From positions 1-64,000 of the IMG/VR virus record IMGVR_UViG_3300032242_002717: a DNA stretch of 64,000 bases; one strand, given 5' to 3'. The notes below the pieces were generated by a model. That model did no database searches. It was not told the DNA's origin and worked only from the letters and a program-made list of their open reading frames with translations. This document shows, in pieces, positions 19,638-23,066 of this stretch. The DNA comes from a virus. Within the stretch, counting starts at the first letter, position 1; each line of letters opens with the position of its first letter. The translations under genes were made by a program, and so were the position numbers.

Positions 19638-22600
19638 ATGGCAGACGACCAACTAACGCAAAAACAGAGAGCATTAGCAGAACTTGAGCTTCGTCGTCGG
19701 GAGACGATCAAGAATCTCGGTCCTGTTTTTGATTGGTATGGAAAACCGTGTTTTTGCAAAGAGTATGATGCGGAAAAGCAGAATTGCAAAAAGCATCCAA
19801 GAGCATTGCCTCATCAAAGGCCACCTGATGGAATTGATTGGCTAACATGGATGATGCTTGCCGGTCGATCAAGCGGAAAAACCCGAGCGTCCGCTGAGTG
19901 GATTCGCTACAAGGTTGAATCTCATGCAGCAAAAGGCGAGCAGATAAGAATTGCGCTGGTGAACGAGACGGTTAGTGAAGTTCGTCGAGTGCAAATCGAG
20001 GGTGCATCGGGATTGTTGGCGGTATCTCCGCCTTGGTTTATGCCCGTCTATATACCTTCAAAAGCTGAAGTTGTATGGCCCAACGGATCTGTGGCTTACA
20101 TATTTTCAGGCGAACAGCCAGACCAACTCCGAGGACCGCAACATCACTATGCATGGTGCTTGCCTGGGTGGACTCAAGTCCTTATGGGCGATGGCACGGA
20201 AAAGCCAATCTCTGACGTTGCCATCGGCGATAAGGTGATGACAAGAGCCGGTGCAAGGACGGTTACGGCATCAATGATGACTCGTCGTTCGGCTCAATGT
20301 CTGACTATGACTTTATCAGATGGAAGAACCCTGACGGCGACCGCAGAACATCCTGTTTACATCGAAGGTCGTGGATTTGTTCCTCTTGGGCAATTAAAAC
20401 CAGGAATGCTTGTATGTGCGATAGATGCATCGTTCACGATGGAGTCTCTTATCACGTCTGGGCAAAAGGATACTACGAGACAAGAATCCGACTTCATCGT
20501 GTCATATGGCAGCAAGCATTTGGGCCAATCCCCAAGGGATTTGACGTCCACCACAAGAACGGCAACAAACTCGACAATCGAATTGAAAACCTTGAATTGC
20601 TTCTCAAGGCAGAGCATAGCAGATACCACTTTGCCATTCATATCACGCCCAACGTCAGAAAAAAAGCGGCAGAAAGATCAGTTGCCAAAATGCATCAAAG
20701 GCGGAATGCCAACGAACAAGTCGTTCGTATTTGTGCGATGTGCAAAGGCGAGTACACTAGCAGGTCTTTTACGCCATCTGCTTTCTGCTCGTCGCCATGC
20801 GTGGAAAAAGCAAGGTCTGGTGGATTCGCAGGCGAAAGCAGGATTTGCTCGCATTGCGGAGCGACTTATACAGCATACAGGAGATGCCACAAGTATTGCT
20901 CAAAGAATTGCAACAACCGTGCATCGCAAGTGCGATATGCGAATAAGGAATCGCTTCTCAAGACAGTTAAATGCGAACAATGCAGCAAAGAGTTTGACAG
21001 CAGGCGAATTAACGCAAGGTTCTGCTCAAGACCTTGTTCCCTTAACTACCACGCTCGAAATTCAAAGCGTACAACCTTGTCGGACGCTACTAGACGTCTA
21101 CGATCTAACGGTTGACAAAGAACACGAATTTTTCGCAAACCGTTTACTGGTAAGGAATTGCGATGAATTGTGCCTAACTCCAGACACCATAATAACTTGC
21201 GCCGATTTTGATAAGCCGATATCTCAAGTAGTTCCAGGCGACATGGTGTTGACTCGTGCTGGTTATCGGCCAGTTGTTGCAGCCTGGAAAACAACAGATT
21301 TAGCCGTTGTGTATCGCCTGACAGCAGACGATGGAAGTTTCATTGTTGGCACTGCCGGGCATCCTGTGTGGGTTGAGGGTGAAGGATGGGTTCCATTAGC
21401 GAATGTGAAGCCGGGCAGCAGACTGAGAAGCCTGACCTCATGCCGTGCGTTGTCTGGGGAGGTCGTCGATGGTGGCTCAATGGCCCATACTACATGTCAC
21501 GAGAAGGAAAATTGCTTCATAGGGCGATTTACGCAGAACATCATGGGCCAATCCCGAAGAACATGGACATTCACCATAAAGACTTTTGCAAAACTAATAA
21601 CGCAATTGAAAACCTTGAGGCGCTTACGAGAAGTGATCACCTCAAGTCTCATAGGATCGTTGGCTGGCCAGGTCCACCAAAGAAAGAGCTTGAACGCAGG
21701 TTCCGGCCTTGGCATTGCCGAGAGCCTGTTTCGTATACATGTAAGTGGTGCAACAAACAGTTTGTCAGCAAAGCTACATATGCATACTACTGCTCCAAAG
21801 AATGCAGAAATAGGTACGTCTGGCACATTGGCACAGATAGCGGGCCTTCAGCCAAGTCAAAGCGAATTCGAGGCAAGATATCTGAGGGAACTCGAAAGCC
21901 ATACAAAACAAAGAAACCAGAAGGCTGGAAGCCAAAAGAGAGGCCGGTCAAGCCTTTGCCTGAGTGCGTTATCTGCAAAACACAGTTTGCGGCCAAAGAC
22001 AGTCGCGGCGTTACATGCGGTTTTGAATGCGGGTGGTCACTACGAAAAAAGCGTTGGGCCGAGAAGCGTGAGCGTGGAGAGGCTTCCCGAAAGAAGTCCG
22101 GTGTATAACATTGAGGTCGAAGGGGAACACGAGTATTTCGCCAACGGTATCCTAACTCATAATTGCAAATGGTCAAAAGCCCAAGCGCAGGTTTGGGATA
22201 ATCTTCTTCTGGGCATGCGTCTTGGCAATAATCCTCAAATTGTTGTGTCTACTACGCCCCAGCCAACGCCAACCCTCCGGGCCATAATTGCAGACAAATT
22301 TACTAAAATATCGAAAGCTTCTACCTATGCCAACCGAAACAATCTTCCAGAAAAGTTCTTTGAAAGCGTAGTAAACAAATACGAGGGTACGAGAATCGGT
22401 CGCCAGGAGTTACATGCTGAGGTTTTGCTTCAGAATCAGAATGCTCTTTGGAATCAAGCTCAAATCGATTCTTTGCGAGTCAGGTCTGTTCCCTATGGGG
22501 TCGAACTTAAAAGGATAGCGGTTGGAGTAGACCCTGCTGGCAAAATATCGGAGATGGCAAAGTTTGTTCATGGCATGCCAACGGAGTCTGGATCGGGCGA

Positions 22601-23066
22601 CGAGGCGGGTGTCGTGGTAGCTGGACTTGGCACTGATGGGCACGGATATATTTTGGGCGACCATTCTACAGGCGGGTCTCCTTCGTCTTGGGGAAAGGCT
22701 GTAGGCGAAGCTTACCATAGGCATCAGGCCAACGTGGTTGTCTGGGAGTCTAATCACGGTGGCGATACGGTGCGAGATGTGATTCTAACGGTCGATCCGA
22801 ACATTGTTCAAAAGCGAGTTCATGCTAGTCGGTCCAAGTACGTTCGGGCCGAGCCTATTGGAGCATTATCTGAGCAAGGCAAAATTCACATAGTCGGCGA
22901 ACTACCACAACTCGAATCTGAAATGTGCGAGTTTGAGCCAGGTGGACCGTCTCCAAACAGGCTCGATGCAATGGTGTTTGCTCTTACAGACCTCATGATT
23001 CAGATCGAAGAAGAAGACAAACAAGAGCTTCCATTTAACAGAATTAGCATCAAGGGGCTTTTTTAA
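19638..23066 (+). CDS. terL: Terminase large subunit precursor with two inteins
   Basis: TerL packages phage DNA with an ATPase and a nuclease. The 1142-residue precursor has a Walker A-like AGRSSGKT (residues 75-82). The Walker B core YAW-CDEL-CKW is split by intein 1 after residue 173 and by intein 2 four residues (CDEL) later. Removing 334 and 331 residues leaves 477, a normal TerL size. C-terminal nuclease features are AVGVDPAG and RLDAMVFALTDLM. Both extein junctions begin with Cys, as splicing needs. Without splicing the ATPase centre cannot form, so packaging depends on it. An HNH frame is nested inside each intein. Confidence 0.93.
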   Translation: MADDQLTQKQRALAELELRRRETIKNLGPVFDWYGKPCFCKEYDAEKQNCKKHPRALPHQRPPDGIDWLTWMMLAGRSSGKTRASAEWIRYKVESHAAKGEQIRIALVNETVSEVRRVQIEGASGLLAVSPPWFMPVYIPSKAEVVWPNGSVAYIFSGEQPDQLRGPQHHYAWCLPGWTQVLMGDGTEKPISDVAIGDKVMTRAGARTVTASMMTRRSAQCLTMTLSDGRTLTATAEHPVYIEGRGFVPLGQLKPGMLVCAIDASFTMESLITSGQKDTTRQESDFIVSYGSKHLGQSPRDLTSTTRTATNSTIELKTLNCFSRQSIADTTLPFISRPTSEKKRQKDQLPKCIKGGMPTNKSFVFVRCAKASTLAGLLRHLLSARRHAWKKQGLVDSQAKAGFARIAERLIQHTGDATSIAQRIATTVHRKCDMRIRNRFSRQLNANNAAKSLTAGELTQGSAQDLVPLTTTLEIQSVQPCRTLLDVYDLTVDKEHEFFANRLLVRNCDELCLTPDTIITCADFDKPISQVVPGDMVLTRAGYRPVVAAWKTTDLAVVYRLTADDGSFIVGTAGHPVWVEGEGWVPLANVKPGSRLRSLTSCRALSGEVVDGGSMAHTTCHEKENCFIGRFTQNIMGQSRRTWTFTIKTFAKLITQLKTLRRLREVITSSLIGSLAGQVHQRKSLNAGSGLGIAESLFRIHVSGATNSLSAKLHMHTTAPKNAEIGTSGTLAQIAGLQPSQSEFEARYLRELESHTKQRNQKAGSQKRGRSSLCLSALSAKHSLRPKTVAALHAVLNAGGHYEKSVGPRSVSVERLPERSPVYNIEVEGEHEYFANGILTHNCKWSKAQAQVWDNLLLGMRLGNNPQIVVSTTPQPTPTLRAIIADKFTKISKASTYANRNNLPEKFFESVVNKYEGTRIGRQELHAEVLLQNQNALWNQAQIDSLRVRSVPYGVELKRIAVGVDPAGKISEMAKFVHGMPTESGSGDEAGVVVAGLGTDGHGYILGDHSTGGSPSSWGKAVGEAYHRHQANVVVWESNHGGDTVRDVILTVDPNIVQKRVHASRSKYVRAEPIGALSEQGKIHIVGELPQLESEMCEFEPGGPSPNRLDAMVFALTDLMIQIEEEDKQELPFNRISIKGLF
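20157..21158 (+). other. Intein 1 in terL (334 residues)
   Basis: Block A starts with CLPGWTQVLMGDGTEKPISD. Block B is TATAEHPVYIEGRG, with the TxxH motif. Block F is VYDLTVDKEHEFFAN and block G is LLVRN, followed by Cys+1. The penultimate residue is Arg, not the usual His, while the terminal Asn is intact. Between B and F the terL frame reads a Ser/Thr/Arg/Lys-rich text with no endonuclease motif; the HNH enzyme is in the -1 frame there. The intein is homologous to intein 2 in its splicing blocks. Confidence 0.9.
20297..21115 (+). CDS. HNH endonuclease nested out of frame in intein 1
   Basis: This frame is -1 relative to terL. Translation probably starts at ATG 20414, which has AGGA eight bases upstream, giving 233 residues. 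The open frame begins at 20297. In 20297 numbering, the HNH core is LHRVIW (His67), FGPIPKGFDVHHKNGN (His85-86) and NRIENLELL. Three zinc modules of the form CxxC...CxxxC follow at 146-168, 184-205 and 226-247. It stops in intein block F. It is probably the homing enzyme that spreads the intein, made as a separate protein. Confidence 0.85.
   Translation: MSDYDFIRWKNPDGDRRTSCLHRRSWICSSWAIKTRNACMCDRCIVHDGVSYHVWAKGYYETRIRLHRVIWQQAFGPIPKGFDVHHKNGNKLDNRIENLELLLKAEHSRYHFAIHITPNVRKKAAERSVAKMHQRRNANEQVVRICAMCKGEYTSRSFTPSAFCSSPCVEKARSGGFAGESRICSHCGATYTAYRRCHKYCSKNCNNRASQVRYANKESLLKTVKCEQCSKEFDSRRINARFCSRPCSLNYHARNSKRTTLSDATRRLRSNG
21171..22163 (+). other. Intein 2 in terL (331 residues)
   Basis: Block A is CLTPDTIITCADFDKPISQV. 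Block B is VGTAGHPVWVEGEGWVPL, with TxxH. Block F is VYNIEVEGEHEYFAN and block G is GILTHN, followed by Cys+1. All canonical splicing residues are present, including the penultimate His that intein 1 lacks. The splicing blocks share KPIS, GD-V-TRAG, DG, HPV and KPG words with intein 1, so the two are paralogues. The middle region again hides an HNH gene in the -1 frame. Confidence 0.9.
21386..22108 (+). CDS. HNH endonuclease nested out of frame in intein 2
   Basis: This 240-residue frame is -1 relative to terL, as in intein 1. GAGGG six bases before ATG 21386 supports it as a start; ATG 21440 is an alternative. The HNH core is LLHRAIY (His45), GPIPKNMDIHHKDF (His63-64) and NNAIENLEAL. Two zinc modules are at Cys 119/122/136/140 and 194/197/211/215. 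The stop TAA lies at the first codons of block F. It is homologous to the HNH in intein 1 and is its likely sister homing enzyme. Confidence 0.85.
   Translation: MGSISECEAGQQTEKPDLMPCVVWGGRRWWLNGPYYMSREGKLLHRAIYAEHHGPIPKNMDIHHKDFCKTNNAIENLEALTRSDHLKSHRIVGWPGPPKKELERRFRPWHCREPVSYTCKWCNKQFVSKATYAYYCSKECRNRYVWHIGTDSGPSAKSKRIRGKISEGTRKPYKTKKPEGWKPKERPVKPLPECVICKTQFAAKDSRGVTCGFECGWSLRKKRWAEKRERGEASRKKSGV

Follow-up and report, generated by a model that had tools for sequence, protein, structure and literature searches.

The window, i.e. the entire 64,000-nucleotide stretch analyzed here (positions 1 to 64,000 of the IMG/VR virus record IMGVR_UViG_3300032242_002717), carries a large terminase gene (terL) that is a single ORF in the frame of position mod 3 = 0, matches Terminase_6N (3e-13) and Terminase_6C (5e-7), and holds two inteins, each overlapping an HNH endonuclease gene in the -1 frame relative to terL (Table 1). 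The extein junctions run HYAW-intein 1-CDEL-intein 2-CKWSK, with intein 2 starting four residues after intein 1. The earlier note on this DNA named intein 1 alone; intein 2 has the same layout, with HNH_3 at -1. Both inteins meet the criteria for position 1, block B, the C-terminal Asn and the +1 nucleophile. The penultimate residue of intein 1 is Arg in place of the usual His, as in 2 of the 90 distinct loci described below, and for this reason its splicing rate is uncertain. The N- and C-halves of the intein 1 Hint domain lie in one stop-free host ORF, and in the AF2 model, residues 1-90 and 292-334 form a Hint fold, which Foldseek matches to solved inteins, the region separating them being modelled with low confidence.

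Table 1. Features of the terL locus, in window coordinates
Feature	Position	Strand	Basis
terL, large terminase ORF (1142 aa), holds both inteins	19638..23066	+	ORF listing
Intein 1 (334 aa): Cys1, TAEH block B, RN end, +1 Cys	20157..21158	+	Intein_splicing match
Intein 1 Hint N-half	20157..20399	+	profile match E 3e-23
AGGA, candidate Shine-Dalgarno of HNH1, spacer 8	20402..20405	+	sequence; SD enrichment over loci
HNH1 endonuclease gene (233 aa), -1 to terL; HNH_3 and three zinc modules	20414..21115	+	PF13392, homologue alignment
Intein 1 Hint C-half (blocks F, G)	21096..21158	+	profile match E 2e-11
Intein 2 (331 aa): Cys1, TAGH block B, HN end, +1 Cys	21171..22163	+	profile matches; L179 homologue
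GAGGG, candidate Shine-Dalgarno, 6 nt before ATG 21386	21375..21379	+	sequence, pairing -6.6
HNH2 endonuclease gene, -1 to terL; HNH_3 and two zinc modules	21386..22108	+	PF13392 4e-15
In-frame 597-nt stretch, almost all HNH2, absent from the L179 intein	21447..22043	+	L179 comparison

The claim that an HNH enzyme with three zinc modules is encoded in the -1 frame of intein 1 holds: the ORF at 20297-21115 (272 aa, open stop-to-stop from 20234) lies at position mod 3 = 2, matches HNH_3 (PF13392, E 2e-20) and contains modules of the form CxxC...C..C at HNH residues 107, 145 and 187. The ORF thus exists as first described, but its start is probably not 20297: judging from the homologue alignment, it is more likely to be ATG 20414, for which the proposed AGGA site is indeed present. 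HNH2 comprises 240 aa from ATG 21386 or 222 aa from ATG 21440. Between the Hint halves, the terL frame and the HNH frame are free of stops across both genes, as had been noted for terL over HNH1, and the third frame contains 13 stops across HNH1 and 20 across HNH2. The AF2 model of HNH1 has a mean pLDDT of 89, and its nearest solved structure is the homing endonuclease I-HmuI (PDB 1U3E; profile E 7e-5; fold search probability 0.98, E 0.03), which is intron-encoded, whereas HNH1 has no intron and its C-terminal part consists of CxxC zinc modules. The criteria for the HNH homing endonuclease fold, namely the catalytic His and Asn and the metal modules, are met (PF13392, alignment A4, I-HmuI match).

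A related record, L179 (IMGVR_UViG_3300032236_001100), has a terL that is 85% identical to that of the window in the best segment. Intein 1 is missing from this gene with exact borders, and the gene's copy of intein 2, about 88% identical in nucleotide sequence, lacks almost all of HNH2, which leaves a mini-intein. This pattern implies that the overprinted element and its HNH are separable and polymorphic; the HNH of the L179 mini-intein may have been lost or may never have been there, both being possible. Support for mobility, as far as sequence comparison goes, consists of only this one polymorphic pair and is limited to intein 1. The L179 terL additionally has an in-frame LAGLIDADG_3 insertion at Walker A (L179:780-2063), so that two intein styles, this one and the mini-intein of the overprint family, occur in one gene.

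Relatives in other phages

Searches with an HNH alignment (A1) and a Hint-only alignment (A2), both independent of the relative frame, yielded 169 further loci, in which frames were assigned by HMM scanning and elements were considered distinct at 80% HNH identity. Among the 132 contiguous Hint inteins found in these relatives, 107 (90 distinct) have the HNH at -1, five have it at +1 (about 10 when loci with a weakly scoring C-block are included), two have it in antisense orientation and 14 are mini-inteins without an HNH; one locus among them, represented by two records, has an antisense DUF559/Vsr-like nuclease. The HMM scan found the HNH in the intein frame in none of the 132. Of the 108 loci in which the two Hint halves are in phase and the HNH is at -1, 106 have an intein frame free of stops; Cys1, the block B TxxH and the C-terminal Asn are retained in nearly all inteins of the family. 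In Pfam, the N-exteins match no families other than terminases, and all their annotated PHROGs are terminases; by a simple motif count, 60 of the 90 distinct elements are inserted at the DA-RY motif of the nuclease domain and 11 after GPQ near Walker B. In control inteins from a phylum-wide sample of bacterial genomes, no HNH was found, and 6 of the 10 that were checked have LAGLIDADG in frame, LAGLIDADG_3 being among the domains seen.

Direct IMG/VR searches with HNH1 and HNH2 returned relatives at 33% identity only, and the highest identity in the later set is about 49%. The HNH tree is poorly resolved, with overprinted and free HNHs intermixed, and the number of origins is not settled. The contiguous -1 arrangement occurs in deposited records, namely Tetrasphaera phage TJE1 (NC_019930), Acinetobacter phage Highwayman (OZ038341), Rhodobacteraceae phage LS06-2018-MD07 (OP947163) and the fecal scaffold MT838676; where these records are annotated, the HNH is not listed, so that, for example, the TJE1 terL appears without it.

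Several loci depart from the common layout. At L144:2953-4254 (also in L146), a 407-aa antisense ORF with zinc-module repeats and a DUF559/Vsr-like nuclease (E 5e-10) overlaps an intein frame that belongs to the same Hint family and is open; by these sequence matches, the overprinted gene on the opposite strand encodes an endonuclease with a different fold. At L020:454-1479 and L136:991-1893, the antisense ORF is of the HNH_3 type and the intein frame is still open; the L136 terL ORF also holds a second intein, with a -1 HNH, beside the antisense one. Two loci appear decayed, namely L178:2461-3180, where only the zinc-module tail of a -1 HNH is left, and L048:1589-3563, where an HNH lies over a reduced Hint in terL.

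Open frames, selection and translation

The openness of the terL frame was scored against a null in which the HNH amino acids were fixed and synonymous codons were resampled. The frame stays open by chance in 0.07% of the trials for HNH1 and 0.03% for HNH2, roughly 1 in 1,000 each, so that the initial estimate of about 1 in 100,000 (61/64 to the 240th power) is about 100 times too small; it rests on the wrong null because the -1 arrangement generates few stops. A host-frame stop at this offset requires an NTA or NTG codon followed by A or G, and the expected number is 5-6 in the window, compared with 18-21 for the other sense frame. Across the 90 distinct loci, the respective expectations are 4.7 for -1 and 16.8 for +1, the intein frame would be open by chance with a median probability of 0.0045, and the log10 probabilities sum to about -184; none of the 179 HNH Met codons in these loci is followed by A. 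The -1 offset probably prevails because the host frame then suffers the fewest stops.

Selection in the two frames, a comparison that the earlier note had called for, differs: pooled over ten pairs of related elements, not all of them independent, pN/pS is 0.34 in the HNH and 0.22 in Hint, and the intein text that overlaps the HNH has a value of 1.00; most of the changes between the paired elements fall at HNH third positions. For the HNH of the +1 family, the value is 0.26. In alignment A4 of 89 HNHs, all of which match HNH_3, one His and four zinc Cys do not vary at all, and further catalytic His and Asn residues hardly do. The purifying selection and the conservation of catalytic and zinc residues imply that both HNH and Hint are maintained. 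At the sequence level, the intein-frame text over the HNH is shown to be kept stop-free, without conservation of the sequence itself. A hydrophilic character of this text was hinted at by the two window inteins only, and over the 90 loci no selection for it is seen (bulky hydrophobics 0.290 observed, 0.279 expected); the small deficit of changes in the text of diverged pairs is possibly a simulation artefact.

A start codon precedes the HNH core in 87 of the 90 loci, usually an ATG soon after the Hint N-half, and the remaining 3 lack one in the searched stretch. An ATG with strong anti-SD pairing is found in the HNH frame in 43% of the loci, compared with 8% and 3% in the other two frames; SD is weak or absent at many homologous HNH starts. 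A separate promoter for the HNH was considered and rejected, there being no excess over shuffles. Internal initiation is the simplest reading of how the HNH would be translated, translation itself being inferred. The suggestion that the HNH is made as a separate protein on the terL mRNA, out of frame with the intein, fits the selection, the ATG and SD enrichment, the conserved residues and the empty site in L179, with expression again inferred.

The proposed element and competing explanations

The favored interpretation, to which a probability of about 0.8 is assigned, is a cis-splicing mini-intein combined with an overprinted, internally initiated gene for an HNH homing endonuclease, where expression, splicing and cleavage are all inferred. 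The Hint halves would be those of a mini-intein separated by a complete, independent HNH gene at -1. Ribosomes translating terL would read the HNH DNA in the host frame as a poorly ordered linker of ~200 residues, which would leave with the intein when Hint splices, and other ribosomes on the same mRNA would initiate at the internal ATG that closely follows the Hint N-half, producing the zinc-finger HNH nuclease. The nuclease would then cut the intein-free terL of a co-infecting phage, and repair would copy the element in. Homing by cutting of an element-free allele is inferred on an only indirect basis, the empty site in L179.

Among the competing explanations, programmed -1 ribosomal frameshifting from terL, which would yield a TerL-N/Hint-N/HNH fusion without a separate start, is unlikely. 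It could draw on the -1 position of the HNH frame in most loci, on the opening of this frame slightly upstream of the likely ATG, and on the canonical slippery heptamers in 19 of the 90 loci; however, no slippery site is conserved, the HNH ATG lies a median of 24 nt after a stop in the HNH frame, which leaves little room for a shift, SD-bearing starts are enriched in that frame, and a -1 shift could not give the HNH in the +1 and antisense versions. Somewhat more doubtful is a role of the HNH in serving the phage, e.g. in DNA packaging, with its place in terL inteins reflecting that role rather than homing. Phages are known to have HNH proteins that act together with terminases (cited in PMC11855218), and the host genes of the HNH inteins are nearly all terL, but presence is patchy, HNH2 and the whole of intein 1 being absent from the L179 terL, the same HNH family is found also in methylases, and the nearest fold is that of a homing enzyme. 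Slightly less credible again is the possibility that the HNH is a fossil or is not expressed and the splicing domain alone is alive: there are no expression data for the HNH, and mini-inteins without it are common, yet the HNH frame is under purifying selection and the catalytic and zinc residues are kept in 89 distinct members.

Two further possibilities can be set aside almost entirely. An in-frame endonuclease being the norm for inteins, assembly or sequencing frameshifts at both HNH edges could hide an ordinary intein, and the earlier note would have accepted such frameshifts, or homologues with the HNH read in frame with the intein, as refutation. Neither was encountered: the same -1 offset recurs in over 100 independent contigs and deposited phage genomes, the artefact would require the host frame to be open by chance every time, and no homologue with an in-frame HNH was found, so that a sequencing frameshift is ruled out by the homologues. 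HNH genes are common in group I introns, which makes it conceivable that the HNH gene resides in an RNA intron or a bypassed segment, but an intron needs no stop-free host frame such as these loci have, the Hint blocks are complete in the window inteins, and no Rfam intron family is matched around the HNH ORFs even at E <= 1.

Relation to known elements and implications

Inteins with an endonuclease are normally a single bifunctional protein with the endonuclease in frame. In the canonical large inteins, this in-frame domain is, e.g., LAGLIDADG (PMC6801210, PMC5050341); the window elements resemble them in the splitting of Hint by an endonuclease at the usual central place and in the insertion at conserved phage terminase motifs, but fail the criterion of an endonuclease in the intein frame because the HNH, at -1 in both, is a separate ORF and not part of the intein protein. 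The likeness to mini-inteins lies in the Hint of about 130 aa, and intein 2 of L179 is exactly of this form; the difference is about 200 extra residues in the intein frame of the window elements, for which the only reason is that the HNH is encoded there.

Dassa et al. in 2009 reportedly described fractured genes in which the intein is split and the endonuclease has a free ORF. Five relatives (L027, L030, L035, L047 and Lactobacillus phage CL2) resemble this arrangement and meet the split-gene criterion: a stop occurs soon after the Hint N-half, and the next two ORFs are the HNH and IntC-TerL-C, in this order, so that the endonuclease has a cistron of its own between the Hint halves. In contrast, the window, where terL is one ORF, does not meet it, and here, as in most relatives, an overprinted cistron lies within a contiguous intein. 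In phage CL2 (L227, NC_028835, 506-2771), the terL annotated as complete seems to end in the Hint N-half; a separate HNH gene follows and, after it, an IntC-TerL-C ORF that is not annotated. On this layout, the terminase is likely to be split and joined by a split intein. In Pectobacterium phage Koroua (L229, 1275-3682), an ORF with a Hint N-half overlaps a LAGLIDADG ORF, which is annotated as a homing endonuclease, and IntC with a helicase comes next; this is probably one more split layout, in which the nuclease belongs to a different family.

The closest precedent is the ShiLan domain, a hidden out-of-frame HNH insertion in phage DNA methylases (Arsenault, Gosselin and Gogarten 2025, PMC11855218). 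The window elements share with it an out-of-frame zinc-finger HNH in an open, uninterrupted host ORF and a patchy distribution, but not the lack of a detectable splicing domain, since they have a complete in-frame Hint and lie in terL; the HNH of the terL elements, furthermore, usually has an ATG and often an SD. Six methylase-like loci (L036, L062, L066, L076, L079 and L089) carry the same HNH_3 family at -1 without Hint, i.e. ShiLan-type insertions, and L036 carries two in one gene. The ShiLan work is the only prior art found in the literature, although earlier mention is not excluded (a preprint on non-canonical actinobacteriophage inteins, Gorbalenya 1998).

These elements are likely to represent an unrecognised and widespread class of phage inteins whose homing endonuclease is never a domain of the intein but is encoded in every case by an overprinted gene of its own. 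The splicing domain and the endonuclease would be two genes sharing DNA, the endonuclease gene being usually at -1, sometimes at +1 or antisense, and sometimes, in the split version, a separate cistron; the intein frame would be guarded against stops only, and the ShiLan-type methylase insertions would be the same kind of element without the splicing domain. In ~90 distinct elements, splicing and homing would then depend on two genes that overprint the same stretch of DNA, against the single-protein norm, and mini-inteins, ShiLan domains and split inteins would be linked in one scheme. The arrangement would show directly how inteins, and ORFs in general, can be invaded by an endonuclease gene, which persists where the host frame can stay open. 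Current annotation misses this class of nuclease genes, as in the TJE1 terL, and named phage records now exist in which internal initiation and homing can be studied.
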